In this document: positions 11,182 through 45,176 of the stretch, one piece after another
Layout: each line of letters opens with the position of its first letter
Numbering within the stretch: the first letter of the stretch is position 1
Assembly (NCBI GenBank): GCA_947647735.1
Contig: CANSLJ010000018.1
Span: forward strand, 1-64,000
DNA length: 64,000 nt
Reading direction: 5' to 3'
Origin: an uncultured bacterium
Lineage (GTDB): Bacteria; Bacillota; Clostridia; Lachnospirales; Lachnospiraceae
Position numbers and translations under genes: made by a program
Notes under the pieces: generated by a model
What the model was told of the DNA's origin: nothing
The model's input: the letters and a program-made list of their open reading frames with translations, nothing else
The model's database searches: none

Positions 11182-11346
11182 GCTCTGACAGAAAAATATT
11201 CTATCCGAGCCTCGCTCCCGCTCCGGGCTAAACGAAGCGGACACTAGGCTCGAAAATATCATGTGAAATTTTGCTTTATAAATTTCACATTGGCTAATGT
11301 GCCGGCGTTTAGCAGGGGCTCCGATAGAATATTTTTCTGTCAGAGC
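11182..11346. repeat. structured intergenic repeat, copy A
   Basis: The element is bounded by 24-bp perfectly complementary arms (11182-11205 and 11323-11346) that continue for 5 more pairs after one C-C mismatch. Inside are a smaller hairpin, TGTGAAATTTT pairing with TAAATTTCACA (about 11262-11289), and GCTAAACG (11227-11234), which can pair with CGTTTAGC (11306-11313). The core is closely similar to copy B (45005-45176) and, in reverse orientation, to copy C (18643-18776). It lies in the thiI/cysteine desulfurase spacer. Confidence 0.85.
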
Positions 11347-11436
11347 TGCATTTGGGTTATAATATAATTTGATATTCCGAAATTCCTTGGTCATCTTGGA
11401 ACCTAATAGTTGGAATCTCTTCCGGTTATATCATTT

Positions 11437-12591
11437 TTAGTGTCGGGAGTATCTCCTTAACATCGGCACGATTTCGTGCAGCGTGTGCAAAGTATACACT
11501 ATTTCCTCTTCTGTTGTAAAGAGGGAAAGGCTAAAACGCAGGGTGGATTCCAGCAGGGAGCGCTCCACGCCGATCGCTTTCAGCGTCTCGGAAGGGCGGG
11601 GATGTTTTGCGGCGCAGGCACTGCCGGCGGATACGCAGATCCCCTTATCCTCCAATGCATGCAACAGCACTTCGCTTCTAACACCGCGGAAGGAGATGCT
11701 TGCCACATGGGGAGCTCCCTCCCTTCCAGGACATCCGTTGATCTGAATGTTGCCGATATCGGAAACACCATCGATCAGTTTCTCCCGCAGCCGGTACATT
11801 CTGAAGGTATCTTCTTCCAGATTTTCGTATATCATCCGGCTCGCCAGTCCCAGTCCGGCGATCGCCGGTACGTTTTCTGTTCCTGACCGCATTCCGTTCT
11901 GCTGTCCGCCGCCAAATACGATGGGATGCAGCTTTACTTTCTCTCCAGCATATAAAAATCCGATACCTTTCGGTCCGTGAATCTTATGTCCACTCACCGA
12001 AAGCAGATCGATATACATCTTTTTCGGCAGGATCCTGAATTTTCCGAAGCCCTGCACCGCATCTACATGAAACAGGGTCCTCGGATTCATCTTCTTGATC
12101 AGCGCGCCTATTTCCACGATCGGTTCCACTGTTCCCACCTCATTATTGGTATGCATCACAGATACCAGTATCGTATCAGGCCGCATGCTTTTCTGCAGGT
12201 CCTCCAACCGGACTTTCCCTGTTTTATCCACCGGAAGATAGGTCACACGAAATCCCTGCTGCTCCAGATATTCCATTGTTTTCAGCACCGCCGGGTGCTC
12301 GATCCGGGTGGTGATCAGATGCATGCCGCTGCGCCGGTTCGCCATCGCCGCACCGATCAGCGCCAGATTATCCGCCTCCGTTCCGCCGGATGTAAAGATG
12401 ATCTCCTTTTCGTTTACTTTCAGCAGTTTTGCGATCTGCTCTTTCGCCTGTTTTACATATTGTTCGGACTGCACGCCCTTAAAATGCATGCTGGAAGGAT
12501 TTCCGTAATCTTCCAGCATGATCTTCGTCATAAGCTCCGCCACCTCAGGAAAGACGCGGGTTGTAGCCGAATTATCCAGATATACTTCCAT
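11437..12591 (-). CDS. cysteine desulfurase (NifS/IscS family)
   Basis: This 384-residue PLP enzyme removes sulfur from cysteine and passes it as a persulfide. MEVYLDNSATTRVFPEV is the family N-terminus, HVDAVQGFGK supplies the PLP-contacting Asp, and SVSGHKIHGPKG carries the Schiff-base Lys (about residue 204). The catalytic Cys is in SAGSACAAKHPRPSE (about 325). The loop is long, as in group I IscS/NifS enzymes. It precedes thiI in the same direction, like the NifZ-ThiI pair of B. subtilis, so its main client is probably ThiI. The spacer to thiI is unusually long, about 285 bp, because of repeat copy A. Confidence 0.93.
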   Translation of the reverse strand: MEVYLDNSATTRVFPEVAELMTKIMLEDYGNPSSMHFKGVQSEQYVKQAKEQIAKLLKVNEKEIIFTSGGTEADNLALIGAAMANRRSGMHLITTRIEHPAVLKTMEYLEQQGFRVTYLPVDKTGKVRLEDLQKSMRPDTILVSVMHTNNEVGTVEPIVEIGALIKKMNPRTLFHVDAVQGFGKFRILPKKMYIDLLSVSGHKIHGPKGIGFLYAGEKVKLHPIVFGGGQQNGMRSGTENVPAIAGLGLASRMIYENLEEDTFRMYRLREKLIDGVSDIGNIQINGCPGREGAPHVASISFRGVRSEVLLHALEDKGICVSAGSACAAKHPRPSETLKAIGVERSLLESTLRFSLSLFTTEEEIVYTLHTLHEIVPMLRRYSRH

Positions 12592-12837
12592 TTTCGATCT
12601 TTTCTCCTATTTCCTGTCTGTATTCATCCAATTTTGTTCTTTCCATGTCTGCGCTCTCCAAATTTTCTGAATACATCCGTTTTCTATCCTATATCATATT
12701 TTATGTAACTTCCCGTAAAAGGTACGTCTTTTTTCGAGTCAAATTTACATTTTATGCACACCGGATCCTCCGCCCTTTTCAGACATGCCCTGCATCTTCC
12801 TGTACATGATGCCAGCCTTTTCCCCAAAGATCGATTT

Positions 12838-13578
12838 CTATTTCTCTAGCTCGTACATAAGCCATCCCAGCACCGTGATCGCCGCTGTTTCCGTCCGCAG
12901 GATCCTCTTTCCCAACGTAACCGGCGCCACCCCGGCTTTCCGCGCCTCCTCTATCTCCGCCTCCTCAAAACCGCCCTCCGGTCCGATAAAGACAGCTATC
13001 CTCTGCCCCGGTCCTGCAGATCTGAGCAGATTTTTTGTCTCCTCCATATTTACCGCCCGCTCATAAGGGATCAGCCGGATATCCATATCCGATGCATAGG
13101 ATAACGCCTCCGAAAATTTCATCACATTATGTACAACAGGAATGATCTGACGCCCGCTCTGTTTTGCCGCCGCCTCCGAGATGCTCTGCCAGCGCTGCAC
13201 TTTGTTCTTTTGTTTTTTCTCCTCCAGTTTTACGACACACCGCTTACACGCCACCGGGATCACCTCAAAACATCCCAGTTCCACTGCCTTCTGAAGGATC
13301 AGTTCCATCTTGTCCCCCTTGGGCAACCCCTGAAACAGAAAGATTTTTGCAGGCAGTTCCGCTTCGCCCTCCTCCACAGATAAGATCCGACAGTCAATTC
13401 CCTCCTCCCCCATTTCCTGAATCTCGCACAGATATTTTCTGCCTTCCGCCTCATTCACGGCAGTGATCTTCTCTCCGATCCGCATACGGAGCACATTCTT
13501 TATATGATTCACATCGGAACCGGTTATCGTAATATGCTCCTTTTCTACCCCCGATGGCTCTATAAAAAACTGATACAT
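12838..13578 (-). CDS. rsmE: 16S rRNA (uracil-1498-N3) methyltransferase RsmE
   Basis: The 246-residue SPOUT-class enzyme methylates U1498 of 16S rRNA. The N-terminal PUA-like part includes HITITGSDVNHIKNVLRMR. The C-terminal trefoil-knot SAM site is clear: IAVFIGPEGGFEEAEIEEA and VTLGKRILRTETAAI. It follows prmA in the same direction with about 65 bp between, a common Firmicute pairing (prmA-rsmE). Confidence 0.95.
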   Translation of the reverse strand: MYQFFIEPSGVEKEHITITGSDVNHIKNVLRMRIGEKITAVNEAEGRKYLCEIQEMGEEGIDCRILSVEEGEAELPAKIFLFQGLPKGDKMELILQKAVELGCFEVIPVACKRCVVKLEEKKQKNKVQRWQSISEAAAKQSGRQIIPVVHNVMKFSEALSYASDMDIRLIPYERAVNMEETKNLLRSAGPGQRIAVFIGPEGGFEEAEIEEARKAGVAPVTLGKRILRTETAAITVLGWLMYELEK

Positions 13579-13642
13579 TTCCGTCTCCTTATCGCTTCAC
13601 CGCATCCATCATGCCATGCGAAATTCTTTTATATGAGATCTT

Positions 13643-14659
13643 CTATGCCGGATCATCCTTCTTCCTCGCCGTCACGCTTACCCATTCTCCCTGATAAGTC
13701 ACCTCCAGGATTTCCATTCCAGCTTTCTCGACCGCTTCCCTCACACAATTCTCCTTATCGTCAATGATCCCCGACGTAATATAGATGCCGCCCGGCTTTA
13801 ACTGATCCAGAATGACCGGCGTCAGCGGCACCAGCACATCCGCCAGAATATTTGCCACAACGATATCATAGCAGCCATAGCCGACTCTATCCTGCACATC
13901 CTTTTCCGTAATGATATTGCCGATGATGAGATCAAACTTCTCAGCCGGAATATGATTTGCCTCCAGATTTTCCTCCACCGCAGGCACCGCACAGGGATCA
14001 AGATCCGTTCCTACGACTTTCTTCCCGCCGTACATCAGCGACAATATCCCCAGAATCCCGCTGCCTGTCCCCACATCCAACAATACGGTTTCCTCTGTCA
14101 GATACTTTTTGATCTGCCTGATACAAAGCTGGGTCGTCTCATGCATCCCCGTTCCGAAAGCTGTCCCGGGATCGATATGCAAAATCTTTCTTCCCGCATC
14201 CTCCGGTTTTACCTCCTCCCAGGAAGGGATCACCAGCAGGTCATCTATATAAAACTGATGGAAATACTGCTTCCAGTTATTGATCCAGTCAATATCCTCC
14301 GTCTCATCCACTGTCACCCTGCCCTCGCCAATGTCCATAAACTGCCGAAGGCCCTCCAGTTCTTCCTCCACCCTTTTCAGGACGATCTTTTCCTCCGTAT
14401 AGATCTTTTCCGTTTCATCGGTCCCCGGCAGTAACAGTCTGCCATCCTCCGCTTCCTCCACAAAAAAGCTGAGGTACGCAATACCGTCATCCTCCGCTCC
14501 CTCCGGCATGATATCCACAAACATCTGCTCCTTTTCCAGCGCAGTCAGAGGCACTTTATCCTCAATCTGAGCCCCTTCCAGTCCGATGTCATAGAGGGTA
14601 CTGATAATGATATCCTCCGCCTCTGTGGTCGTTTTTATTTTAAATTTTTTCCATTTCAT
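13643..14659 (-). CDS. prmA: ribosomal protein L11 methyltransferase PrmA
   Basis: The 338-residue class I methyltransferase trimethylates ribosomal protein L11. The N-terminal substrate-recognition domain begins WKKFKIKTTTEAEDII; the catalytic domain has DPGTAFGTGMHETT (about 174), the SAM motif LLDVGTGSGILGI (about 196) and DIVVANILADVL. It is slightly longer than the usual 300-320 residues, mainly within the N-terminal domain, where an acidic segment is inserted. Its neighbour downstream is rsmE. Confidence 0.95.
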   Translation of the reverse strand: MKWKKFKIKTTTEAEDIIISTLYDIGLEGAQIEDKVPLTALEKEQMFVDIMPEGAEDDGIAYLSFFVEEAEDGRLLLPGTDETEKIYTEEKIVLKRVEEELEGLRQFMDIGEGRVTVDETEDIDWINNWKQYFHQFYIDDLLVIPSWEEVKPEDAGRKILHIDPGTAFGTGMHETTQLCIRQIKKYLTEETVLLDVGTGSGILGILSLMYGGKKVVGTDLDPCAVPAVEENLEANHIPAEKFDLIIGNIITEKDVQDRVGYGCYDIVVANILADVLVPLTPVILDQLKPGGIYITSGIIDDKENCVREAVEKAGMEILEVTYQGEWVSVTARKKDDPA

Positions 14660-14689
14660 AATACTTCTCCTGTTCTCCTCATCGCCATT

Positions 14690-16225
14690 TCAATAAATGA
14701 TCCACTTCCCATTTCTGCTGAATCCGACAAACTCGGCAATTTCTTTCTCCCTCATAACCGCCAGTTCCTTTTTTAAAGCATACATTGATATTCCCAGTAC
14801 CTCTGTCATTTTCTTTTTTGATATTGACGGATTTTCTTTCATCAATGTCAAAATCTGTTCCCGCAATTCCAGAGTTTCTGAATTTTCAATCCACACGTAA
14901 GATGGGGTTGAATTTGGGGTTGAATTTGGGGTTGAATTTGGGGTCGCCCTTTTTTTCCTCTTGTTTTTTTCGGTCAAAAATCCTTCATGTACAAATAGTC
15001 TTGATATAAAATAACTATGCGCCTCATCCGTCTCGAACTCCGGTTTTGGCGATCCGTTTGCCTCCAACGCGTCAAGTATCTTTTTAAAGCCTGTATTTCT
15101 GCCCTCTGTCAGATGCAGCTCCTTTAAAAACTCTCCTATCCGGCGATTTCTATACCTTCTGTTAGAGACACGGTAGTTTCTAAGACCCTCAATAGTCACA
15201 GAACGATCCGGCCCCGGAAAACTCACAATTTCTATCCTGTCATTTTCCACCCGCACTTCTATCGGCTCGCGCTCATCATACGCCCGATGATATACCGCAT
15301 TTGACAAGGCTTCCTCCACTGCTGCAAAAGGGTAATTAAAATAACGTTCCGCCTCTGCCCTGTCAGGATCCTTGACAACCCTCTCCGTAATGATCGTATT
15401 CCTTATATACTGCAAGGCATCACGCAACTGTTGTTGGATCGGTCCCTTAAACGTCTGCTCAATGATATCATTACCTCCCAGGCCATCCGGAAACTGAACT
15501 ACATCTATCTGTGTATACGGGAAAAATTTTTCCGGTTCCATACTGAAAAACATTAAGCCGACATTTTTAGGTTTTATATATTCCGGAAGACTGCTGATAA
15601 TATTCATATCTCTGCATACTTCCGTGAAATCTCCTGTTTTTGCCTTATCATAAAGAGAACTTTTAATCTCTTTCAAATAATTCTGAACAAGAGTGATGTT
15701 TAAATCTGACATCTCCGCCTGATGATTGATGCGGTCATCAAAGGGAATTCTGTTTGCCAGAGAGAACAGATCCTTTTCCTCCTCATCAGACGGTTCAACC
15801 GTACTGGACATCTTACGTATATAATGAATACGCTCCTTATTATTTTTTGCCATTGTTTTCGGTGAAGAATATGGCCTGTTATCCCCACCCGGACACCAGA
15901 GAATAATGAATTTCCTGCCCTCATGATCTACAACTTCAACTATTGGCATATATGACGGCCTGATCAGTTTACATCTCGAGAAAATACTCTTTTGGCAGGC
16001 ATCCACTTGATCTACAGGTATGCCTTTCAGCGGATAAACCGGGCGCCCGTTCTTTTCTTCTACACCGACGATAATATAACCGCCGCCCCAATTATCAAGG
16101 TCATTTGCAAAACCGCAAACTGTTTTCAAAGAAGCTTCCGCATCCCACGTTTCTTTAAACTCGATTCTTGCCCACTCAACCACATCGCCTGACAGTAATG
16201 TCTTTATATTTGTAGGTATCCCCAT
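14690..16225 (-). CDS. AlbA_2/HATPase_c_4 putative DNA-binding transcriptional regulator
   Basis: The roughly 511-residue protein has an N-terminal AlbA_2 (Schlafen-like) domain (VEWARIEFKETWDAE, then GGGYIIVGVEEKNGRPVYPL), a middle region, an HATPase_c_4 domain (FPFAAVEEALSNAVYHRAYD-type motif with IEIVSFPGP and GRNTGFKKI) and a C-terminal winged helix (ISKKKMTEVLGISMYALKKEL). Such proteins are often labelled RecG-like; the regulated process is unknown. Between the ATPase domain and the winged helix lies a TPNSTPNSTPNSTPS linker from a 12-bp tandem repeat. The ATG at 16225 is preferred because AAGGAAG lies 8 bp upstream. Confidence 0.8.
   Translation of the reverse strand: MGIPTNIKTLLSGDVVEWARIEFKETWDAEASLKTVCGFANDLDNWGGGYIIVGVEEKNGRPVYPLKGIPVDQVDACQKSIFSRCKLIRPSYMPIVEVVDHEGRKFIILWCPGGDNRPYSSPKTMAKNNKERIHYIRKMSSTVEPSDEEEKDLFSLANRIPFDDRINHQAEMSDLNITLVQNYLKEIKSSLYDKAKTGDFTEVCRDMNIISSLPEYIKPKNVGLMFFSMEPEKFFPYTQIDVVQFPDGLGGNDIIEQTFKGPIQQQLRDALQYIRNTIITERVVKDPDRAEAERYFNYPFAAVEEALSNAVYHRAYDEREPIEVRVENDRIEIVSFPGPDRSVTIEGLRNYRVSNRRYRNRRIGEFLKELHLTEGRNTGFKKILDALEANGSPKPEFETDEAHSYFISRLFVHEGFLTEKNKRKKRATPNSTPNSTPNSTPSYVWIENSETLELREQILTLMKENPSISKKKMTEVLGISMYALKKELAVMREKEIAEFVGFSRNGKWIIY
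14904..14944 (-). repeat. 12-bp tandem repeat encoding TPNS units
   Basis: GGGGTTGAATTT (plus strand) occurs three times in direct succession (14904-14939), followed by a partial fourth GGGGT. It is in frame in the AlbA_2 gene and encodes Asn-Ser-Thr-Pro repeats. Because the unit is 12 bp, gain or loss of units would keep the frame. Confidence 0.95.
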
Positions 16226-16402
16226 TGTCTGCACTTCCTTTTTCTGTTCTTTTTATCTAAAAGAACACGGTTATTACAAAATAAAACTTTATGACCTGAT
16301 ATCAGTATTTCCATTTCATTTCACAATTGTCTATAGAATATCACATCTATCCCTCAAAAAGAAGCCGAACGTTTAAAAAGAAATAAAATTTTCATTTACC
16401 CC

Positions 16403-16431
16403 TTGACAGTTCCACTGTATCATTGTATTAT
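16403..16431 (+). promoter_or_regulatory. promoter of the GntR/ABC operon
   Basis: A consensus TTGACA (16403-16408) is followed after 17 bp by TATTAT (16426-16431). The rest of the 343-bp gap between the divergent genes at 16225 and 16578 holds the operator and a leader of about 130 bases in which I see no other clear element. Confidence 0.75.
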
Positions 16432-16443
16432 TCACTTAATACA
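16424..16443 (+). promoter_or_regulatory. operator-like inverted repeat at the GntR promoter
   Basis: TGTATTA-N6-TAATACA is a perfect inverted repeat covering the -10 hexamer. A second perfect 12-bp palindrome, ATACAATTGTAT, follows at 16447-16458. Placement over the promoter of a gene for a YtrA-type GntR regulator suggests autorepression. Confidence 0.65.
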
Positions 16444-16577
16444 GCAATACAATTGTATGCGGTTACTGTAACACCAAACAATCATTTCCGCGAACGGCAG
16501 CACATAACAAAATACTGTATCTGTCCGTTATCGCGGCATCATATCAGCGCAAATGCGCAGAAAGGAGTATCAGAACA

Positions 16578-16982
16578 TTGGAAGGTACAAAAAATATAAA
16601 ACATTCTGAAAATGAATGGCACCTGACATCAGACCGTCCGGTCTTTATCCAGATCATGGAGAAACTGAAACTGGACATCGTAACCGGCATCTACCAGCCC
16701 GGCGATAAACTGCCGTCAGTGCGGGATCTTGCTGGCGAAGCAGCCGTCAATCCCAATACCATGCAGCGGGCTTTCTCGGAACTGGAACGGGAAGGGCTTG
16801 TCTACACACAGCGTACCAACGGCCGATTTATAACGGAGGATATCACCATGATCGATCAATTGAAAGAGCAGATGGCTTTGGATGCCATTTCCCAATTTTT
16901 AAAAAGTATGGAACAACTCGGATTTTCCGATGAGGAAACCATGAAGCTGATCAAAGAAGCTTTAAAGGAGGAGACAGCATGA
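16578..16982 (+). CDS. GntR family regulator, YtrA subfamily
   Basis: The 134-residue protein has an N-terminal winged helix (PVFIQIMEKLKLDIVTGIYQPGDKLPSVRDLA, then VNPNTMQRAFSELEREGLVY) and a short C-terminal helical tail instead of a ligand-binding domain, which is the YtrA type. These repress adjacent ABC transporter genes. The start is a TTG at 16578 with AAAGGAG upstream; no ATG exists before the DNA-binding domain. The stop overlaps the next start as ATGA. The ligand or stress signal is unknown. Confidence 0.88.
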   Translation: MEGTKNIKHSENEWHLTSDRPVFIQIMEKLKLDIVTGIYQPGDKLPSVRDLAGEAAVNPNTMQRAFSELEREGLVYTQRTNGRFITEDITMIDQLKEQMALDAISQFLKSMEQLGFSDEETMKLIKEALKEETA

Positions 16983-17677
16983 ACACATTGGTAACCTGTA
17001 AAGAGCTGACAAAAACCTACGGCAAAAAAACCGCCCTGAACCATGTCAGCCTGGAAATAGAAAGCGGCCATATCATCGGCCTGCTTGGACCTAACGGCAG
17101 CGGAAAGACCACCTTTATCAAACTGCTGAACGGACTGCTCACACCGACTTCCGGCGAGCTGTATGTGAAAAAACTGCCGGTAGGCATCGAGAGCAAAAAG
17201 ATCATCTCTTACCTGCCGGACCAGACCTATTTAAATATGAATAATACGGTACAGGATGTTCTCGACTATTTCGGTGCATTTTATGCGGATTTCGAGAAAG
17301 ACCGCGCATATCAGATGCTGGAGTCCCTCAAGATCAGCCCGAAAGACAAATTGAAATCCATGTCCAAAGGCACAAAAGAAAAAGTACAGCTCATCCTTGT
17401 TATGAGCAGGAGGGCGGAACTCTATGTACTGGATGAACCGATCGCAGGCGTAGATCCCGCCGCAAGAGATTATATTTTGCAGACCATCCTGACAAACTAT
17501 GATCCCGAGGCTTCCATTTTAATCTCAACCCATCTGATCTCTGACATCGAAAATATTCTGGATCAGGTGATCTTCATCAAAGAAGGTGAGATCTGCCTGC
17601 AGGCGTCTGTAGACGACATCCGCATGCAGCATCAGAAATCCATTGATGCTTTATTCAGGGAGGTATTTAAATGTTAG
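16979..17677 (+). CDS. ABC transporter ATP-binding protein
   Basis: The 232-residue nucleotide-binding domain has Walker A GLLGPNGSGKTTFIKLL (about residue 35), a signature-like SMSKGTKEKVQLILVMSR (about 123, diverged from LSGGQ), Walker B LYVLDEPIAGVDP and a switch His in ISTHLISD. This diverged signature is common in the YtrB/EcsA-type export subfamily. It overlaps the regulator upstream and the permease downstream, so the three form one operon. Confidence 0.92.
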   Translation: MNTLVTCKELTKTYGKKTALNHVSLEIESGHIIGLLGPNGSGKTTFIKLLNGLLTPTSGELYVKKLPVGIESKKIISYLPDQTYLNMNNTVQDVLDYFGAFYADFEKDRAYQMLESLKISPKDKLKSMSKGTKEKVQLILVMSRRAELYVLDEPIAGVDPAARDYILQTILTNYDPEASILISTHLISDIENILDQVIFIKEGEICLQASVDDIRMQHQKSIDALFREVFKC

Positions 17678-18483
17678 GAAAATTATTCAAATATGAATTC
17701 AAGCATACTTCAAAAACAATGTTTGTCACTTTTATCGTGCTCGCTGTCGCGACCATCGCGGGCTCCTTAGCCCTCTATCAGCTCGATCAGACCGGCATGG
17801 AAGGCACCTTTTTCTCCATTTTCAGCATGATCATGCTTGTCATCTACACGATTGCGATCATCGGCATCTACTGCGGAGATTTCATATATCTCTGTTACCA
17901 CTACCATAAGACCATGTATTCGTCGCAGGGCTACCTCACCCACACCCTTCCGGTTGCCCCTGCTGCCACGTTCAGTGTAAAAATACTGGTTTTCTTTATC
18001 TGGATGCTGATCTCGACAATTTTATCGGTACTGTCCCTGTTCGTCCTGCTTCAGGTGGGAACAGGTGGAGAATTTCTTCATGCTCTCCTTGATTTTTCCT
18101 GGCAGGGATTTTCTCAGGATGTCAGAGACATATTCGGTTTCTCAGCAGGCGTTTTTCTCATCATAGCCATTTTTGAGGGCCTTCTGAACCTCCTTTATAC
18201 CATCCTGTTCGTCACCGCCAGCATGGCGATCGGCCAGCTCTTCCAGAAAAACCGCGTGGCATTCAGTATCCTTGCCGGCTTCGGAATCTACATGGCCAAC
18301 CAGATCGTCAGCACCATTTTCCTGGTAGCCTGCGGCTACAGCACAAGAGCCTTCCTTGAAGGTGACTTCAGCAGCTTCATGTACAGCATTCTCGGGGGAA
18401 GCACTGCGATTACCGCAATCTTTCTGGCAGCTTTTTGCGGAATATGCATCTACATCAATAGAAAAAGACTGAACCTGGAGTAA
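17671..18483 (+). CDS. ABC transporter permease
   Basis: The 270-residue protein begins MLGKLFKYEFKHTSKTMF, the cytosolic amphipathic start typical of ABC-2-type permeases, followed by about six hydrophobic segments (near residues 18-36, 48-70, 100-125, 160-180, 190-215 and 240-265). It overlaps the ATPase gene by 7 bp and is expected to be its membrane partner. The substrate cannot be told from the sequence; YtrA-linked systems often respond to cell-wall stress. Confidence 0.85.
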   Translation: MLGKLFKYEFKHTSKTMFVTFIVLAVATIAGSLALYQLDQTGMEGTFFSIFSMIMLVIYTIAIIGIYCGDFIYLCYHYHKTMYSSQGYLTHTLPVAPAATFSVKILVFFIWMLISTILSVLSLFVLLQVGTGGEFLHALLDFSWQGFSQDVRDIFGFSAGVFLIIAIFEGLLNLLYTILFVTASMAIGQLFQKNRVAFSILAGFGIYMANQIVSTIFLVACGYSTRAFLEGDFSSFMYSILGGSTAITAIFLAAFCGICIYINRKRLNLE

Positions 18484-18527
18484 AAGTATTCTTACTCCGC
18501 CCTAAATTAATCACTGTAGAATTTAAA

Positions 18528-18560
18528 ATTCCAGCTTCATCCTAACATTGAAGCTGGAAT
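18528..18560 (+). terminator. hairpin after the GntR/ABC operon
   Basis: A 12-bp perfect stem ATTCCAGCTTCA/TGAAGCTGGAAT (18528-18539, 18549-18560) lies 44 bp past the permease stop. No strong T-run follows on the plus strand; on the minus strand it is followed by TTTAAATT, so it may also serve transcripts arriving from dnaJ. Confidence 0.55.
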
Positions 18561-18642
18561 ATAAATACTGAGTAAACCCTAAAATTATACTTTATTTCAA
18601 CTCAAATCTACAATTATAAACTACCAGTTATTGTCACAACCA

Positions 18643-18776
18643 GTCACAAGCGGCTATATATCCTGTGAAGACTGTAGAAAAACGTCGGTACTTGGCGAGG
18701 TATTCTCGAGCCTAGTCCCGCTACGTTTTTCTCCAAGCGAGAGCGCGTCTGAACAGGATATATAGCCGCTTGTGAC
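18643..18776. repeat. structured intergenic repeat, copy C (reverse orientation)
   Basis: Perfect 24-bp complementary arms (18643-18666 and 18753-18776) are followed inward by two mismatches and four further pairs. The core matches the reverse complement of copy A: an AAACG-YCGGY-AC stretch near 18680-18690, TCGAGCCTAGT (18706-18716) and CCGCT-ACGTTT (18718-18727). It lacks the inner AT-rich hairpin of copies A and B. The arms are unrelated to those of A and B. It fills most of the 313-bp gap between two convergent operons. Confidence 0.8.
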
Positions 18777-18796
18777 GTCCGTTACCAACACCCTAA

Positions 18797-19960: not shown

Positions 19961-20007
19961 GCCTCTAACCTCTATTCCAGTTTGCTATTCTAATGTATAT
20001 AAACCCG

Positions 20008-20044
20008 AAAAGATTTACGGGCGATTCTGTTTCGTCCGTAAATC
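20008..20044 (-). terminator. hairpin between dnaK and dnaJ
   Basis: GATTTACGGGCGA (20012-20024) pairs with TCGTCCGTAAATC (20032-20044) with one mismatch. On the minus strand it is followed by TTTT. It lies 33 bp after dnaK and could act as a partial terminator or mRNA stabiliser that keeps DnaK above DnaJ. Confidence 0.55.
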
Positions 20045-20076
20045 ATTTCGTGCATAAGCTGTTTTATAAGCTGTTT

Positions 20077-21987
<1,911 letters not shown>

Positions 21988-22030
21988 CTATCTGAAACAT
22001 TTTATATTGATATAAATTGTTATGAATAAA

Positions 22031-35274: not shown

Positions 35275-35303
35275 ATTTTATCATGCCGGCGAAGAATAGA
35301 CAA
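35275..35303 (-). promoter_or_regulatory. promoter of the YesN-LytS sensor operon
   Basis: On the minus strand TTGTCT (35298-35303) and TAAAAT (35275-35280) are spaced by 17 bp, about 60 bp before the response-regulator start. Confidence 0.55.
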
Positions 35304-35335
35304 GTTTCCCCGCCTGTGGAAAATGGCCCTTTACG

Positions 35336-35373
35336 CAAAAAACCGAAGAAAACATTCCTCCGTTTTCTCCGGT
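35336..35373 (-). terminator. Rho-independent terminator of the DUF6465-type gene
   Basis: ACCGAAGAAAAC (35342-35353) pairs with GTTTTCTCCGGT (35362-35373), with one G-U pair. It is followed by TTTTTTGC on the minus strand. Confidence 0.8.
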
Positions 35374-35410
35374 CTTTTATCCTGTTCTTTTTAATGATCC
35401 GATTTTGCTT

Positions 35411-35884: not shown

Positions 35885-36012
35885 AATATACCTCATTCCT
35901 GCGCCGCTTTTCATGGGGGAAGCGGTTCTGGTAAGCAGCGCCCTATCATAAACCGCCTTTGAAGTTTTTCACATCGTTCTCAGTCTATACCCGTTAATAC
36001 CTTTTGTCAATG

Positions 36013-36840: not shown

Positions 36841-36855
36841 AAAATTATACTCCTT

Positions 36856-38043
36856 TTATCTGTATTCGTTTTCTACAAATTTTCTGAGAGCCGGGATGGA
36901 ACGTTCCACTTTTTCCGTGTCGATGCAGTATGCCATTCTGAAAAAGCCGGGGCAGCCGAAGCTGTCGCTGGGCACGAGGATCAGGTCGTACTTCAAGGCT
37001 TTGTTGCAGAAGCTGACTGCATCTTCCTCCAACGCTTTGGGGAAGATATAGAAGGTTCCGCCGGGTTTTGTGCAGGTGAAGCCGAGGGCCGTCAGTTCCT
37101 TATACAGTATGTTCATGTTTCTCTCGTAGACGGACAGGTCCGCTGTCAGGCCTATGGTCTCCGCTACAGCGAGCTGCATGATGGAAGTAGGGCAGTTATG
37201 TCCTGTTCCTCTGGATATCTGGCCGCACATCTCCACCAGAGTTGCCGCTTCCTCACAGGCGGGATTTACCGCCACATAACCGATACGCCCGCCCGGCAGG
37301 GAGAGGGACTTTGAGAAGGAGTAGCAGGTTAAAGTATCTTTATAGTACTTTGCCACATAGGGAGCATCCACCCCCTCAAATAAGATCTCACGGTAGGGCT
37401 CATCCGATATCAGGTATATCTTATGCCCATACTGTGCGGATTTTTCTTCCAGGATCTCCGCCAGCTTCTGCACGGTTTCCGTAGAATATACCGCGCCGGA
37501 AGGGTTATTGGGCGTATTGATCAACACTGCCATCACCTTCTCCGTGAGCATTTCCGCAAAGGCTTCAAAATTGATCTGAAAGTTTTCTGTGTCAGCCGGA
37601 ACCACTTTGAGCTTTGCCCCGGTCAGGTTAATATAGGGGCCGTACTCCGGAAAGTAGGGCGCAAAAGTCAGGATCTCATCCCCCGGCTCCGAAACGCAAC
37701 GCACCGCATGGGCGATCGCTCCTGCCGCGCCGGATGTGGGAAAAATATGTTCTGCCCGATAAGGCACCCCAAACCGCCTCTCCAGGGAAGCGGCAATTTT
37801 CTCCTTCACCGACGGAATGCCCAGCGTAGGACTGTAACCGTGCAGTTCTATCGAGCTCTTCTCCTGCAGCAGACGGATCATCACATCCGTAAACTCCTGC
37901 GGCACCGGCACCGACGGATTCCCCAGACTGTAATCAAACACATTTTCATACCCGATCTCTTTCCCCCTCGCCGTCGCAAACTCCGAGAGCGACCGGATCA
38001 CCGACTTATTTCCCAGCATATCTTTATATTTCTGTACCAGCAT
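36856..38043 (-). CDS. PLP-dependent class I/II aminotransferase
   Basis: The roughly 395-residue fold-type I aminotransferase resembles the aspartate/aromatic (AspC/AraT) group. FDYSLGNPSVPVP is the N-terminal substrate loop, GAAGAIAHAVRCV the PLP-phosphate region, INTPNNPSGAVYS the Asn site, ISDEPYREILFEG the Asp/Tyr site, and CYSFSKSLSLPGGRIGYV carries the Schiff-base Lys (about residue 241). C-terminal FRMAYCID supplies the carboxylate-binding Arg. The precise amino donor is not evident. The ATG at 38043 follows AGGAAAGGA; a longer reading overlaps the 7TM gene. Confidence 0.85.
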   Translation of the reverse strand: MLVQKYKDMLGNKSVIRSLSEFATARGKEIGYENVFDYSLGNPSVPVPQEFTDVMIRLLQEKSSIELHGYSPTLGIPSVKEKIAASLERRFGVPYRAEHIFPTSGAAGAIAHAVRCVSEPGDEILTFAPYFPEYGPYINLTGAKLKVVPADTENFQINFEAFAEMLTEKVMAVLINTPNNPSGAVYSTETVQKLAEILEEKSAQYGHKIYLISDEPYREILFEGVDAPYVAKYYKDTLTCYSFSKSLSLPGGRIGYVAVNPACEEAATLVEMCGQISRGTGHNCPTSIMQLAVAETIGLTADLSVYERNMNILYKELTALGFTCTKPGGTFYIFPKALEEDAVSFCNKALKYDLILVPSDSFGCPGFFRMAYCIDTEKVERSIPALRKFVENEYR

Positions 38044-38065
38044 CTTATTATATTCCTTTCCTGTA

Positions 38066-38755
38066 TTATTTATCACTAGCATACACCTTTTTCATATCCC
38101 ACGCCACAAAAATTATGAGGCACACAGCAAACGCCGCCCCCAGCGGCATATCCGCATCATAGTGCCGGAGGAATGCCCTTCCCTGACAGGCCATTGAGAT
38201 CACCCAGAGAAAAACACCGGACGAAAGCAGCATCTTTACAGGCAGTTTTTTTTCCTTACCGCAAAAAACAAACCACAAAATACCGGCAAGCGGCAGAAAC
38301 CGTCCTGAAACATGAAAGACCTCCCCCAGCGTTGTCCGCTCCGTTTCTATATAATAGAAGAACTGATTCTGCAGAAATTCCTGCCCACTGTACAAAAGCC
38401 TGTAAAGGCTGTCTGAAAACAAAAATACCGCTGCTGTCAGTCCCAAAATACCCGCGATCATCTTGACCGTCCTGCTGTCCCTGCCAGATAATGACACGCA
38501 TGTCACAAAGAATCCGCATCCTGTCAGCACCTTTCCGAGCAGGCAGATCTTTTCCGCCAGCCTCAGCCCTGCCATAGCGATCTCCTGCAGATACAGCCCG
38601 TAGCCTGCCTCCATCAGAACGATTCCCGAAAGCACCGCCAGCACAGACATTCCGTATCTCTCTCCCCGCAGCCTTTCATCGGTCAGCGCCAGATACAGAC
38701 AGATGCCGGAAACAAGGATACAGATGGCCTGAAAGCACATGATATAAAAATACAT
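38066..38755 (-). CDS. orphan 7TM-type membrane protein
   Basis: The 229-residue protein has about seven hydrophobic segments (near residues 3-22, 37-56, 68-90, 98-117, 147-165, 175-190 and 203-220) and a short basic C-terminus. The layout resembles the N-terminal 7TM sensor module of some Clostridial histidine kinases and diguanylate cyclases, but no output domain follows: the frame stops and the aminotransferase begins 23 bp later. It starts 6 bp after glpK, so it is co-transcribed. The function is unknown; the family assignment is uncertain. Confidence 0.55.
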   Translation of the reverse strand: MYFYIMCFQAICILVSGICLYLALTDERLRGERYGMSVLAVLSGIVLMEAGYGLYLQEIAMAGLRLAEKICLLGKVLTGCGFFVTCVSLSGRDSRTVKMIAGILGLTAAVFLFSDSLYRLLYSGQEFLQNQFFYYIETERTTLGEVFHVSGRFLPLAGILWFVFCGKEKKLPVKMLLSSGVFLWVISMACQGRAFLRHYDADMPLGAAFAVCLIIFVAWDMKKVYASDK

Positions 38756-38761
38756 ACCTGC

Positions 38762-40357
<1,596 letters not shown>

Positions 40358-40375
40358 TTAAAAAATTTATGAAAC

Positions 40376-40404
40376 TTTACAAATTTCACTTTTTTCATTA
40401 TACT
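40376..40404 (+). promoter_or_regulatory. plsC promoter
   Basis: TTTACA (40376-40381) and TATACT (40399-40404) are spaced by exactly 17 bp, 24 bp before the assigned start codon. This argues against the upstream in-frame ATG at 40369, which would lie inside the promoter. Confidence 0.75.
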
Positions 40405-40428
40405 ATTCTTTCAGGGGGATTCTTTTAT

Positions 40429-41196
40429 ATGCTTCGATTTTACTATGTTATCATCTTAAATCTCTGGCGGGCGTTTTATATGTTGCCCATGATGCGGTAC
40501 AAGGCAAACCGCCCCGCAAAATATACGCTCCAGGAACGATACGACTTTGCAAAATGGGTAATGCACCATATGCAGCGTACCGGCAGGATCACCACGAAAG
40601 CCTACGGTGTAGAAAATCTGCCGAAAAAAAACGGTTATGTCATGTATTCCAACCATCAGGGAAAATACGATGCGCTGGGCATCGTGGATATGCATGAGCG
40701 TCCCTGCAGTATCGTTATGGACGAAGCCCGTTCCCATGTGATGCTGACTGCACAGTTTATCGATCTTCTGGAAAGTAAGCGCCTTGTTCTGGACGATATG
40801 AAGCAGGGACTCAAGATCATGAAGGAGATCACCCGGGAGCTCCGGGAGGACAACAAAAACTTCCTGATCTTCCCGGAGGGCGGTTACACCGACAACCATA
40901 ATATGGTCTGTGAATTCAAGGGCGGTTCTTTTAAATGCGCCCAGAGGGCAAAAGCCCCCATCGTGCCTGTCGCCATTGTCAATTCCTGGAAGGCTTTCGA
41001 GAGCAAAGGGCTTGGCCCCGTGGAGACACAGGTGCATTTTCTGCCGCCCTTATATTATGAAGAATACAAAGATATGAAAACAAATGAAATAGCAGACACT
41101 GTCCAGAAAAGGATCCAGCAGACGATCCTTGATAATCTGACAGGAAAAGATCTGGAAGTGCTGCAAAAACAATTGGCTGAAAGGGAAGATACTTAA
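40429..41196 (+). CDS. plsC: 1-acyl-sn-glycerol-3-phosphate acyltransferase
   Basis: The roughly 255-residue membrane-associated enzyme adds the second acyl chain in phosphatidic acid synthesis. It has the acyltransferase motif NHQGKYD (HX4D, about residue 73), the FPEGGYTDNHN motif (about 146) and an N-terminal hydrophobic segment (MLRFYYVIILNLWRAFYML). The ATG at 40429 has AGGGGGA eight bases upstream. A hairpin terminator follows directly, so it is monocistronic. Confidence 0.88.
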   Translation: MLRFYYVIILNLWRAFYMLPMMRYKANRPAKYTLQERYDFAKWVMHHMQRTGRITTKAYGVENLPKKNGYVMYSNHQGKYDALGIVDMHERPCSIVMDEARSHVMLTAQFIDLLESKRLVLDDMKQGLKIMKEITRELREDNKNFLIFPEGGYTDNHNMVCEFKGGSFKCAQRAKAPIVPVAIVNSWKAFESKGLGPVETQVHFLPPLYYEEYKDMKTNEIADTVQKRIQQTILDNLTGKDLEVLQKQLAEREDT

Positions 41197-41215
41197 AAGT
41201 CTTCCCTTCTTTTTT
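41183..41215 (+). terminator. Rho-independent terminator of plsC
   Basis: GGGAAGA (41183-41189) pairs with TCTTCCC (41200-41206), followed by TTCTTTTTT. The stem overlaps the last codons of the gene. Confidence 0.8.
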
Positions 41216-41314
41216 CGAAAATTTATAATTATCTTATCTTTTGTTCATTGACTTATCACAAATTTGGAATATAATAGCAACTATTACCAAAAAACGAGAA
41301 AATGAGGAGTGTTT

Positions 41315-43066
41315 ATGATTAAAACATTAGCTGCACAGGTAAAGCAGTATAAACTGCCTTCTCTTTTGACGCCCTTTTTTATGGCGCTGGAAGTAATCGT
41401 AGATATTCTGCTTCCTAAAACAATGGGTTCCCTGATCGACAAAGGCATCCAGGCGGGGAGCCTTCCGGACATATTCCGCTACGGCGGATACATGCTCCTG
41501 CTTGCTTTCTTCGGCCTTGTCTTCGGCGTGCTGGCGGGAAAATATGCGGCGCAGGCATCCTCCGGTTTCGCCTGCAACGTGCGGGATGCCATGTATACCA
41601 ATATTCAGAAGTTTTCTTTTTCCAATATTGACAAGTTCAGCACGGCAGGGCTGATCACCCGGCTGACTACGGATGTGACCAATCTGCAGAACGCCTATCA
41701 GATGATCATCCGTATGTGCTTCAGGGCACCGCTTATGCTGATCTTTTCCCTGATCATGGCTTTTTCCATCAGCACCCGGCTGAGCATGGTCTTTGTTGTC
41801 GCGCTGGCGATACTGGTCGTTTTCCTTGGCCTGATCATTTCCCGCGCCATGAAATATTTCAACGAGGTCTTTGAAAAATATGACGATCTGAATGCCAGCA
41901 TTCAGGAAAATGTATCCGCCATCCGCGTTGTCAAGGCTTTTGTCCGGGAAGATCATGAGAATGAAAAATTCAGGGCGGCTGCCAGCGGCATCTACAAAAT
42001 GTTCGTAAAGGCGGAAAGCGTTGTTGCAAACAACGGCCCCATCATGATGCTGGCGGTTTATTCCTGTATGCTCTCGCTCTCCTGGCTGGCGGCAAAGATG
42101 ATCACCGCCGGAACATTGACTACAGGGGAACTGACAACGCTGTTTTCCTATGTCATGTCCATCCTGATGAGCCTGATGATGCTCTCCATGATCTTTGTCA
42201 TGCTGACGCTTGCCGCGGCAAGCGCGCGCCGTGTGGTGGAAGTCCTGAATGAAGAGCCTGACCTTGTCAGTCCGGAAAATGCAGTGACGGAAGTCACAGA
42301 CGGCAGTGTGGACTTTGAAAATGTGTTCTTTTCCTATAAAAAGAATTCCTCGGAGCCGGTACTGAACAACATCAATCTGCATATACATGCAGGTGAGACC
42401 ATCGGTATCATCGGCGGCACCGGTTCCGCAAAATCCAGCCTTGTGAACCTGATCAGCAGGCTTTACGACGTATCGCAGGGATGTGTAAAAGTCGGCGGCA
42501 GGGATGTGCGGGAATACGATCTGGATACGCTGAGAAATGAGGTATCCGTTGTGCTGCAGAAAAATGTCCTGTTCTCCGGCACGATCCTGGAAAATCTGCG
42601 CTGGGGCGACAAGGACGCCACGCTGGAAGACTGCAGGCGTGTCTGCCGCCTCGCCTGTGCGGATGACTTTATCGAGCAGTTCCCCGACAGGTACGAAACA
42701 TATATCGAGCAGGGCGGCACCAATGTCTCCGGCGGCCAGAAGCAGCGTCTCTGCATTGCCCGCGCTCTGCTGAAAAAACCGAAAATACTTATTCTGGATG
42801 ACTCCACCTCCGCAGTGGATACGGCTACGGACGCCCGCATCCGGCAGGCTTTCCGGGAGGAGATCCCGAATACCACAAAGTTTATCATCGCCCAGAGAAT
42901 ATCCAGCATTCAGGATGCAGACCGCATCATCGTTTTAGAGGACGGTGTGATAAACGGGTTTGACACCCATGAAAATCTGCTGCAGAGCAATGCGATCTAC
43001 CGTGAAGTCTATGAGAGCCAGACGCAGGGCGGCGGTGATTTCGATCATAAAGGAGGTGTTTTATAA
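41315..43066 (+). CDS. ABC exporter subunit with degenerate catalytic site
   Basis: The roughly 583-residue half-transporter has six N-terminal transmembrane segments (residues 15-305) and a C-terminal ATPase domain. Walker A is GGTGSAKSSLVNLI (about residue 371) and the signature NVSGGQKQRL is normal. After Walker B it reads LILDDSTSAVD, with Asp where the catalytic Glu is expected. This is the pattern of the degenerate partner (TM287-like) in heterodimeric multidrug exporters. The ATG at 41315 has GAGGAG upstream. It overlaps the second subunit as TAATG. Confidence 0.92.
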   Translation: MIKTLAAQVKQYKLPSLLTPFFMALEVIVDILLPKTMGSLIDKGIQAGSLPDIFRYGGYMLLLAFFGLVFGVLAGKYAAQASSGFACNVRDAMYTNIQKFSFSNIDKFSTAGLITRLTTDVTNLQNAYQMIIRMCFRAPLMLIFSLIMAFSISTRLSMVFVVALAILVVFLGLIISRAMKYFNEVFEKYDDLNASIQENVSAIRVVKAFVREDHENEKFRAAASGIYKMFVKAESVVANNGPIMMLAVYSCMLSLSWLAAKMITAGTLTTGELTTLFSYVMSILMSLMMLSMIFVMLTLAAASARRVVEVLNEEPDLVSPENAVTEVTDGSVDFENVFFSYKKNSSEPVLNNINLHIHAGETIGIIGGTGSAKSSLVNLISRLYDVSQGCVKVGGRDVREYDLDTLRNEVSVVLQKNVLFSGTILENLRWGDKDATLEDCRRVCRLACADDFIEQFPDRYETYIEQGGTNVSGGQKQRLCIARALLKKPKILILDDSTSAVDTATDARIRQAFREEIPNTTKFIIAQRISSIQDADRIIVLEDGVINGFDTHENLLQSNAIYREVYESQTQGGGDFDHKGGVL

Positions 43067-44991
43067 TGGCACAGGCAAGAGTAGTACACGGTCCCGGCAG
43101 GCGGGGGGCTCAGGGCCCGAAGCCCCGGTTGGAAAATTCAGGAGCCCTGTTAAAGCGCCTTTTCGGGTTTGTCATGAAAAAATATGCGTTTCCTGTAGTT
43201 GTTGTTCTTCTTTGCATCATAGGATCTTCCCTTGCCACCGTGCGGGGCACATTGTTTATCCAGACATTGATCGATGATTATATCATGCCCCTGATCGGCG
43301 TCAGTTCACCGGATTTCAGCCCGCTGAAAAGCGCTCTGCTGAAAATGGCATGTATTTATATCTTTGGTATTCTCTGTTCCTGGGGATACAATCAGATCAT
43401 GGTAAGGGTCAGTCAGGGAACCTTGCATGACATTCGTGTCATGTTGTTTACGCGAATGGAATCGCTGCCGATCAAATATTTTGACACGCATCCCCACGGC
43501 GACATCATGTCCGTCTATACAAACGATGTGGATACGCTGCGTCAGTTGATCGGCGGGAGTCTCCCCCAGCTTGCTTCCAGTGCCATCACGCTGGTCAGCG
43601 TTTTTGTCAGCATGATCTATCTGAACATCCCGCTGACGATCGTGACGCTGTTTATGGTGGCCCTTATGATGCTCGTGACAAAAAAAGTGGCTTCCCTATC
43701 CGGGCGCTACTTTATGGCGCAGCAGCAGGACATCGGTAAGGTCAACGGCTATATTGAGGAGATGATGGAAGGGCAGAAAGTTGTTAAAGTATTCTGCCAT
43801 GAAGAGGAAAGCCTCGCCAGATTCCGGGAGCTCAATGACAATCTTCGTGACAGCGCCAATAACGCTAATAAATTTGCCAACATTCTGATGCCTTTAAACG
43901 CTCAGCTCGGAAATGTCAGTTATGTGGTCTGTGCCATCACAGGCGCACTGCTTGCCATCAACGGCCATTTCGGCCTGACCATCGGCACGCTGGTTTCCTT
44001 CCTGACACTGAATAAAAGCTTTAACCAGCCTATCGCTCAGGTCAGCCAGCAGCTTAACTCTGTTGTGATGGCGCTTGCCGGCGCTGACCGTATCTTTAAA
44101 CTGATGGATGAAACGCCGGAGGTGGATGAGGGCTATGTCACCCTTGTCCGTGCCAGAAAAGATCAGCAGGGTAACATTCAGGAATGCAAAGAGCGTACCG
44201 GTATGTGGGCATGGAAACATCCCCACCAGGCTGACGGGACCATTACCTACACCGAGCTGACCGGCGACGTTGTTTTTGACGATGTGGACTTTGGTTACAA
44301 TGATGACAAGATCGTGCTCCACAATATCAAGATGTTCGCAACGCCGGGACAGAAAATCGCTTTCGTCGGCAGCACCGGTGCCGGCAAAACGACCATCACC
44401 AACCTGATCAATCGTTTCTATGATATTCAGGATGGTAAGATCCGTTATGACGGCATCAATATCAATAAGATCAAAAAGGATGACCTGCGCCGTTCGCTGG
44501 GCATCGTACTGCAGGATACCCATCTGTTCACCGGTACGGTGATGGAAAATATCCGTTACGGAAAACTGGATGCCACAGACGAAGACTGTATTGCTGCCGC
44601 AAAGCTTGCCAACGCCCACGGATTTATCAAAAGGCTGCCGAACGGCTATGAAACGCTGCTGACCGGAGACGGCGCGAATCTCTCCCAGGGGCAGAGGCAG
44701 CTCCTTGCCATTGCGAGGGCCGCTGTGGCTGATCCGCCTGTTCTGATCCTGGATGAAGCGACCTCCAGCATTGATACCAGAACGGAAATGCTGGTGCAGA
44801 GGGGAATGGATTCTCTGATGAAGGGACGTACCACTTTCGTGATCGCACACAGGCTCAGCACTGTCCGGAACAGTGATTGTATCATGGTTCTGGAGCAGGG
44901 ACGTATTATCGAGCGCGGGAGTCATGATGAATTGATTGCGGAGAGGGGGAAGTATTATCAGTTGTATACGGGGATGAAAGCGGAGGCATAG
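43066..44991 (+). CDS. ABC exporter subunit with canonical catalytic Glu
   Basis: The 641-residue half-transporter has a Gly/Arg-rich N-terminal extension, six transmembrane segments (about 40-335), and an ATPase domain with Walker A GSTGAGKTTITNLI (about 437), a noncanonical signature NLSQGQRQLLAIARA and Walker B LILDEATSSID with the catalytic Glu. Combined with the upstream subunit this reproduces the TM287/TM288 asymmetry: one composite site competent and one degenerate. A segment of about 40 residues between the membrane and ATPase domains (VTLVRARKDQQGNIQECKE) is an insertion. An AAAGGAGGTG site precedes the ATG. The substrate is unknown, probably drugs or lipids. Confidence 0.92.
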   Translation: MAQARVVHGPGRRGAQGPKPRLENSGALLKRLFGFVMKKYAFPVVVVLLCIIGSSLATVRGTLFIQTLIDDYIMPLIGVSSPDFSPLKSALLKMACIYIFGILCSWGYNQIMVRVSQGTLHDIRVMLFTRMESLPIKYFDTHPHGDIMSVYTNDVDTLRQLIGGSLPQLASSAITLVSVFVSMIYLNIPLTIVTLFMVALMMLVTKKVASLSGRYFMAQQQDIGKVNGYIEEMMEGQKVVKVFCHEEESLARFRELNDNLRDSANNANKFANILMPLNAQLGNVSYVVCAITGALLAINGHFGLTIGTLVSFLTLNKSFNQPIAQVSQQLNSVVMALAGADRIFKLMDETPEVDEGYVTLVRARKDQQGNIQECKERTGMWAWKHPHQADGTITYTELTGDVVFDDVDFGYNDDKIVLHNIKMFATPGQKIAFVGSTGAGKTTITNLINRFYDIQDGKIRYDGININKIKKDDLRRSLGIVLQDTHLFTGTVMENIRYGKLDATDEDCIAAAKLANAHGFIKRLPNGYETLLTGDGANLSQGQRQLLAIARAAVADPPVLILDEATSSIDTRTEMLVQRGMDSLMKGRTTFVIAHRLSTVRNSDCIMVLEQGRIIERGSHDELIAERGKYYQLYTGMKAEA

Positions 44992-45004
44992 GAAAAATCC
45001 GGAC

Positions 45005-45176
45005 GCTGTGTAGAAAGTAAAATATCCCTTCCGCAACCCGCTCCCGCTTCGGGCTAAACGCAGCGGACGCTAAACTCGTGAAATACCATGTGAAATTTTG
45101 TTTTTTAAATTTCACATTGGTTAATGCGCCGGCGTTTAGCAGAGTTGCTACAGGAATATTTTACTTTCTACACAGC
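45005..45176. repeat. structured intergenic repeat, copy B
   Basis: The arms 45005-45037 and 45144-45176 are complementary at 29 of 33 positions (21 consecutive). The core is nearly the same as copy A: CTCCCGCTTCGGGCTAAACG, GTGAAATTTTG...AAATTTCACATTGG and GCCGGCGTTTAGCAG. The arms differ from those of copy A yet stay self-complementary. It fills most of the 293-bp gap between the convergent ABC exporter and SGNH genes; no other clear element is seen there. Confidence 0.85.

Follow-up and report, generated by a model that had tools for sequence, protein, structure and literature searches.

Elements A, B, and C, three hairpins in the 64,000-nucleotide stretch of Lachnospiraceae DNA analyzed in this study (the window), probably belong as old copies to a non-autonomous, MITE-like hairpin family of the Lachnospiraceae, in which the arms are kept paired by template switching. 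Copies would be moved by transposases supplied in trans, which in several genera may be of the IS66 type, and after insertion the palindrome would be self-maintaining as DNA. Following a mutation in one arm, the nascent strand could switch template within the hairpin during DNA replication and copy the change, or its reversal, onto the other arm, such that the arms would drift while staying complementary. The core would serve as a signal that the mobilization machinery reads as an extruded DNA hairpin, and such a role is the most likely ground for its conservation between genera, which the ends do not share.

The three copies described in an earlier sequence-only reading of the window were all recovered in place (Table 1), while two of its comparisons among them were in error. 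Element C, taken there as the reverse complement of A, lies on the same strand as A (81% in the alignment), and it is B that is reversed. Similarly, the inner hairpin ATGTGAAATTT..AAATTTCACAT, said to be missing from C, is present in C and absent from B. The outer arms are Watson-Crick paired at 24 of 24 positions in A, as had been reported, and at 24 of 24 in B and 24 of 25 in C (one A.C mismatch), for which 29 of 33 and 24 of 24 had been given. Folding compared with dinucleotide shuffles yielded z-scores of -10.2, -10.8, and -10.0 for A, B, and C, respectively, with 0 of 200 shuffles as good. No T-run was found 3' of the right arm, where the flank has the consensus TGG.T, and the elements are thus not intrinsic terminators.

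Table 1. Elements A, B, and C and their surroundings in the window
Feature	Position	Strand	Remarks
Element A, whole hairpin	11182..11346	+	Outer arms 11182-11205 and 11323-11346; long inner-hairpin form
Element A, core model R1 match	11203-11324		E 1.8e-12
Element A, extended inner hairpin (A/C form)	11261..11290	+	From sequence and fold
Element A, flank tetranucleotide GTCC	11178..11181	+	Conserved
Element A, neighbors			Cysteine desulfurase (NifS/IscS-type) gene on one side, thiI on the other; 29 nt to thiI start codon
Element B, whole hairpin	18643..18776	-	Outer arms 18753-18776 and 18643-18666; short-tip form
Element B, core model R1 match	18665-18755		E 5.3e-20
Element B, flank tetranucleotide GGAC	18777..18780	-	Conserved
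Element B, neighbors			+ strand gene and dnaJ, convergent; dnaJ stop codon 20 nt away
Element C, whole hairpin	45005..45176	+	24/25 outer arm pairs; long inner-hairpin form
Element C, core model R1 match	45029-45151		E 1.3e-12
Element C, extended inner hairpin	45088..45117	+	From sequence and fold
Element C, flank tetranucleotide GGAC	45001..45004	+	Conserved
Element C, neighbor			ABC transporter stop codon 13 nt before C

A family whose core is conserved and whose arms are self-complementary but particular to each copy, as proposed from these three copies, was borne out by covariance-model searches of the genome and of other Lachnospiraceae. The window's own genome contains at least 67 copies, comprising 61 distinct copies that were extracted and six further places found by the core covariance model. 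Their hairpins are 112-252 nt long and have no coding capacity, while members of the family measure roughly 130-250 bp with the outer ends. The model matched 57 of 120 Lachnospiraceae genomes, counting the best 35 matches per genome, and, in a draw over the whole class, five of 196 genomes, each of them from the Lachnospiraceae. The distribution over genera is patchy, with many gut Lachnospiraceae among the carriers; a carrier genome has dozens of copies, some of which form close inverted pairs. The core consists of the CGCTNNCGCT bulge, YAGCGG, ACTA..., and AAGTRCCGRCG, and is closed by long arms that differ from copy to copy. Among 59 diverse sequences, 90.2% of core cells were paired and two-sided changes occurred in 246 cells, whereas the mean after shuffling was 79.9 and slid controls reached no more than 55. 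The view that the repeat belongs to no recognized class held against Rfam, where no covariance model matched at the gathering score and a search over A at E<=10 returned only a chance microRNA match (E 9). No match was found in viral contigs with the core pattern, or in plasmids and phages with B as the query. At the level of literature listings no description of the repeat was found, and in literature text one of six core strings of 12-13 bases occurred in each of seven papers, whose titles are unrelated.

The ends of the repeat were analyzed in a wider locus set, consisting of loci among the matches listed in a core search beyond the window's own genome, a sample rather than a total. The cultured strain Oribacterium sinus DSM 17245 is one carrier in this set. 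Eight loci (L157, L163, L179, L181, L191, L208, L212, and L226) were left out of the orientation, end-scoring, and wobble counts of this set but kept in the count of 8-bp target site duplications (TSDs). The remaining 97 elements include 34 in loci L237-L269 and one sequence present in three loci. Elements with arms of fewer than 12 pairs were left out of end scoring, both TSD analyses, and the wobble count. In several genera, the sequence GTWRCWKTTCA was found at both ends (at least 9 of 11 positions) in 19 of 94 elements; at 10 or more positions it occurred at 15 left and 18 right ends, compared with two each on the wrong strand. An 8-bp TSD (at least 6 of 8) was present in six of 21 elements, where shuffling gave a mean of 0.33 and a maximum of 4 in 2000 shuffles. 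In the sister species G003, L120 and L128 have terminal inverted repeats CAATRTCATTTAGTTAA, unlike the GTWRCWKTTCA ends, and perfect 10-bp TSDs (10/10 each; CAGAAATAGT and GCGGATGAAC, respectively). A TSD scan of 212 elements found five with a score of at least 12 and 11 with a score of at least 10, where 0.0 and 1.8 were expected from shuffled flanks. Clear TSDs were few. The suggestion of a non-autonomous mobile element is supported by some recent copies from other species, which have inverted ends together with target duplications, and the repeat shows terminal inverted repeats, TSDs (in other species and genera), short length, multiple copies, and no coding capacity, as MITEs do.

IS66 elements make 8-bp target duplications and have GTAA ends. 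Of 19 IS66-family loci examined, four had ends like those of the repeat in the stretch seen. Among these, L339 (2308 bp) has 23 identical end bases and encodes one 581-aa protein that matches PF03050 (E 1.5e-17), L336 (1824 bp) matches at 18 of 19 end bases, L332 has a left end of the GTWRCWKTTCA type, and L340 is an IS66 remnant in the window's own genome with its right end 30 nt past the transposase stop codon. The proteins of L339 and L332 scored 137 and 102 bits, both below the NCBIfam cut-off of 180 bits, and no TSD was seen at L339 or L336. IS66-like ends at both sides (at least 9 of 11) were found in none of the 59 scored copies of the own genome and in one of 39 in G003, where two of 41 elements were poor or overlapping. 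A, B, and C themselves show neither such ends nor a target duplication, and their link to IS66 is therefore by family only. PF03050 had no match in six of 13 genomes searched, including G003, G001, G024, and G053, the last of which carries 183 copies of the end GTAACAGTTCAG.

The repeat resembles IS66-family MITEs in the inverted GTWRCWKTTCA ends and 8-bp duplications of complete copies in other genera, and IS66-type elements with such ends are present in the Lachnospiraceae. It differs in that these ends are not seen in the window's genus and that its conserved part is the middle core, which model R1 did not find inside the IS66 loci or core-less MITEs. The core is thus not simply an IS remnant. 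A quite unlikely variant is a mobile element turned inside out. The core, as an extruded DNA hairpin, would then be the signal for a factor of the Lachnospiraceae that recognizes the ends by their structure; arms and termini could have any sequence provided that they pair, different transposases could carry the unit, and the arms would be only a self-templating stem.

The tetranucleotide that adjoins the hairpin, together with the high copy number, the intergenic location, and the close inverted pairs, recalls REP/REPIN repeats; a Y1 (RAYT) transposase would then mobilize the element in single-stranded form, with the GGAC/GTCC foot as the tag. This explanation is very unlikely and already disfavored, as Y1 transposases were found in 32 of 57 element-positive and 36 of 63 element-negative genomes (taking both 120-genome draws as the same genomes), and the single Y1 match in the own genome is partial, covering profile positions 2-45 and containing one stop codon. 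The repeat is also longer than REP/REPIN and has TSDs, which REP transposition is not known to leave. Long intergenic hairpins of the ERIC/bcr1 type exceed 100 bp, are interspersed, and have no coding capacity. Compared by description, the Lachnospiraceae repeat shares these features and the whole-length foldback with them, but its outer arms vary per copy while complementarity is kept.

Changes in the arms were followed in seven ortholog pairs, after three of ten candidates were left out: L154/L133 (L133 arms poorly paired), L156/L016 (core subtype differs), and L122/L029 (one flank only). The arms change in place while the core is nearly constant: 137 arm base pairs were unchanged, 31 had changed on both sides, and five on one side. 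Matched changes, as the sequence-only reading had noticed, therefore prevail, but to attribute them to selection on a folded molecule, whether DNA or RNA, is weakly justified, given that 17 of the 31 double changes are double transversions and that G.U-type pairs are infrequent in the family and show no strand bias. No wobble pair can bridge a double transversion, which weakens RNA selection as an explanation. Of the 10 gap columns, four are internal symmetric length changes, all in L118/L009, and six are at alignment ends; L118/L009, whose arms differ by four pairs on both sides together, is the only pair with a clear two-arm length change.

Wobble pairs were rare in the family as a whole. 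The outer arms of the 97 wider-set elements were Watson-Crick at 1887 of 2001 pairs, with 24 G.T and 38 A.C, and core helices P3 and P4 of the diverse alignment A1 had 19 G.T and 23 A.C of 1174, while tRNAs as a yardstick had 19 G.T and no A.C of 245. With equal penalties for both, the arms over G000, G003, and G001 had 27 G.T and 24 A.C. Core P3 in the same three genomes was biased (41 G.T, 13 A.C); an assignment of an RNA strand from wobble, positive in the window's genus, failed on the diverse alignment.

The P3 bias is one hint of an RNA role. Another is position: 44 of 54 copies with a GGAC-type foot have a + gene at the left, and 37 of these 44 lie 6-38 nt behind its stop codon, many copies in G000 and G003 being thus sense. 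With the strong folding scores and the core covariation, these features would suit a structured RNA (part of a 3' UTR, or a small RNA element) that has been domesticated and has spread as a repeat, its arms being kept paired by selection on the transcript. We consider this unlikely, since wobble lacks a strand bias family-wide and G.U is scarce compared with tRNAs, double transversions are seen in the arms, a T-run is absent, and the wider locus set has no orientation bias (++ 23, -- 21; 26 of 97 not assignable). The double transversions and the rare, strand-unbiased wobble favor template switching, and the arm data fit switching from arm to arm better than RNA selection. Maintenance of hairpins by template switching has been published (PMC8794818); the stems there are likewise kept paired by double changes without wobble intermediates, while the Lachnospiraceae stems belong to a single bacterial repeat family with numerous copies scattered over the genome.

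Arms and cores may also have been combined in another way, with existing palindromes receiving the core in their loops, by insertion or by exchange, and the arms of a copy being those of the palindrome that it entered. At the orthologous site of L156 and L016, the outer arm is the same (15 bp) and the core subtype differs, indicating that modules can also be exchanged and speaking against drift in place as the sole process. In L285 of G003, GTAACAGTTCAG arms enclose one nested unit, and GTAACAGTTCAG hairpins also occur bare. In G006, the ortholog of the A site lacks the core and consists of a hairpin alone, whose arms are similar, although bare hairpins at this site may be deletion remnants and are thus ambiguous as evidence of insertion; at B, where an empty site was sought in six relatives, the region was not alignable. 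Such exchange is improbable as the general explanation, as orthologous arms change in place around a near-constant core in all seven pairs and recent copies of one subfamily inherit related arms. The L156/L016 site, the restriction of clear length changes to one pair, and the lack of IS66 matches in six genomes make the template-switching MITE no more than probable and loop exchange somewhat less improbable.

The unnamed repeat may be regarded as a variant of the MITE/REP-like repeats of bacteria. A repeat abundant in major gut bacteria is thereby defined, for which no earlier description was found in Rfam or in the literature as listed. It provides a natural data set of stems that covary strongly yet bear no signature of RNA selection, which calls for care when RNAs are sought through covariation, and its orthologous copies make the rate of arm-to-arm template switching measurable.

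The three elements of the window (A, B, and C; see the table) were present where the sequence-only reading had placed them, and each folded approximately 10 standard deviations better than its own shuffled sequences. A and C share one form and one strand, with 81% identity over about 157 bases. The reversed copy is B and not C, and the inner hairpin that had been described as missing from C is present there and missing from B, as the two copies had been swapped. The complementarity of the outer arms was upheld for all three copies, with counts of 24/24 in A, 24/24 in B, and 24/25 in C.

Elements, related loci, and candidate transposase loci
Feature	Location	Strand	Description
A	window:11182-11346	+	Flanked by a cysteine desulfurase gene and by thiI, whose start is 29 nt away
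B	window:18643-18776	-	dnaJ stop codon 20 nt away
C	window:45005-45176	+	13 nt behind an ABC transporter gene
Weak R1 match	window:21657-21749		E 0.051; within a minus-strand open reading frame
Added R1 places, own genome (G000)	C20:71603, C4:106116, C14:72, C8:33266, C20:18140, C5:32331
Close inverted element pairs	G000:C8:14171-14531, G000:C25:50665-51070, G229:C2:42952-43266, G255:C3:73749-74142		A few hundred bases apart
L285	G003:C141:39700-40300		Nested palindromes; core-bearing CAATGTC-ended unit within GTAACAGTTCAGC arms
L339 (G075)	304-2611		IS66-like, 2308 bp; 23 identical inverted end bases; single 581-aa transposase (PF03050, E 1.5e-17)
L336 (G022)			1824 bp; 18/19 end bases
L332 (G062)			Left end
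Transposase remnant, own genome			GGCTGAACTGTTAC 30 nt behind the stop codon

Used as queries, A and B each matched dozens of sites across the genome of the window, and 61 distinct elements were extracted from its stretches and the window. The covariance-model search proposed in the sequence-only reading, performed with a model of the core (R1) built from 59 diverse cores, added six places, for a total of at least 67 copies; its weak match within the window is probably due to chance. As a DNA query, B found matches in 9 of 41 relatives, comprising eight of the genus's nine genomes plus a single further relative. A core-pattern search of public genomes gave at least 113 matching stretches, where the 80 titled loci among the matches listed were nearly all from Lachnospiraceae or unnamed Clostridia MAGs, and their carriers included Acetatifactor, Eisenbergiella, Roseburia, Agathobacter, Oribacterium sinus, and one MAG labelled Anaerovibrio. 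With one genome per genus, R1 matched 57 of 120 Lachnospiraceae genomes; it also matched 5 of 196 genomes in a class-wide draw, all five being Lachnospiraceae. Searches of viral contigs, phages, and plasmids gave no match. No known repeat class had been recognised from the sequence, an Rfam search likewise gave no match, and no description was found in the open-licence PMC text searched. The element is an abundant new hairpin-repeat family, known so far from Lachnospiraceae.

From the outside inward, the element consists of its outer ends, a short internal loop (its left side terminates in GGAC or GTCC in many of the copies; its right begins with TG or TA), a copy-specific arm of usually 20-30 bp, a short helix followed by the unpaired CGCTNNCGCT and another helix, a 2-nt AG bulge with the helix CGG..ACTA / AAGT..CCG, and finally the tip. 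The tip is exchangeable, being short in B, extended in A and C, or another hairpin elsewhere. In the core alignment 90.2% of cells were paired, and the anticipated covariation among homologues was observed, as double-change cells numbered 246, where shuffles gave 79.9 and slid controls no more than 55. Many copies of the sister species G003 (L118, L119, L141) carry an extra GGCTCTG..AAGAGCC hairpin beside the CGCTNNCGC bulge, and their tips vary from copy to copy as modules.

Orthologous copies were identified between species through flank matches. Among the arms of seven ortholog pairs, 137 base pairs were unchanged, 31 had become a different Watson-Crick pair through two-sided change (14 double transitions and 17 double transversions), and five were altered on one side. 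For example, 8 of 26 arm pairs changed on both sides between A and its G003 ortholog, C-G to A-T and T-A to A-T changes were found between L155 and L012, and the arms of L118 and L009 also differ in length by four pairs, on both sides simultaneously. The dominance of two-sided changes agrees with the earlier observation of matched arms, which had been attributed to selection on the fold. G.U is a common intermediate in the change of RNA stems. Wobble was rare and symmetric here, with G.T 19 and A.C 23 of 1174 in the core helices P3 and P4 of the diverse alignment A1, and G.T 24 and A.C 38 of 2001 in the arms of public-genome elements. Eleven tRNAs gave G.T 19 and A.C 0 of 245, a rough yardstick as the tRNA finder itself favours G.T. 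A bias within the genus (G.T 41 vs A.C 13) was not upheld across Lachnospiraceae. Template switching between hairpin arms is described as a route by which RNA hairpins are created and maintained (PMC8794818), and it would explain the double transversions and the scarce wobble at once. Covariation alone thus makes no good case for RNA function in this family, and maintenance of arm pairing through template switching is the best-supported interpretation. Besides in-place arm change, modules can also be exchanged, as a further ortholog pair, L156 (G001) and L016 (own genome), retains the same outer arm with different core subtypes. At the A site, orthologs in three genomes (L104 in G006, L105 in G001, L108 in G007) are hairpin-only, their arms resemble those of the complete element, and they are either its remnants or its precursors.

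The suggestion of a non-autonomous mobile element is supported by the ends and target duplications of recent copies elsewhere in Lachnospiraceae. Two recent G003 copies (L120 and L128) carry CAATRTCATTTAGTTAA as an outer inverted repeat, and their 10-bp target duplications are perfect; a flank-pair scan of 212 elements gave five scores of at least 12, compared to 0.0 with shuffled flanks. In other genera the outer ends read GTWRCWKTTCA, and 19 of 94 elements match at least 9/11 at both ends; immediately outside such ends, 6 of 21 have an 8-bp duplication matching at no fewer than 6/8 positions, against a mean of 0.33 in shuffles, the best being L222 (8/8) and L182, L160, and L236 (7/8). Ends of this type also bound core-less MITEs and bare hairpins (L276, L277, L314). 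Five genomes (G053, G062, G001, G011, G075) were rich in such core-less MITEs and hairpins bounded by GTAACAGTTCAG, several of which show 8-bp target duplications. GTAACAGTTCAG was found in 31 of 60 Lachnospiraceae genomes, including 183 occurrences in G053, a count made without a reversed-pattern control.

The GTWRCWKTTCA-type ends also occurred at 4 of 19 loci bearing an IS66 transposase domain, namely L339, L336, L332, and the transposase remnant of the own genome (see the table). This link is weakened by the lack of an IS66 match in 6 of 13 genomes searched (G003, G024, and G053 among them), NCBIfam scores under the cut-off, no visible target duplication at L339 or L336, and the absence of such ends at both sides in all 59 own-genome copies. 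The core was not found in the IS66 loci or core-less MITEs tested. Y1/RAYT transposases showed no association, with Y1 in 32 of 57 element-positive and 36 of 63 element-negative genomes.

Gene neighbours of 108 elements in the own genome, G003, and G001 were taken from simple ORF calls, not annotation. Where the arm base carries a GGAC-type tetranucleotide, a sense gene precedes in 44 of 54 elements, 37 of these 44 lying 6-38 nt from the stop codon, and 12 of the 108 lie between divergent genes. Among public-genome loci, orientation was even (++ 23 vs -- 21) and divergent sites were not rarer than convergent ones (15 vs 12). A role at 3' ends in the window's genus is possible but unproven. The family is best placed among the bacterial MITE/REP-like elements, where its conserved middle and non-conserved ends are unusual.
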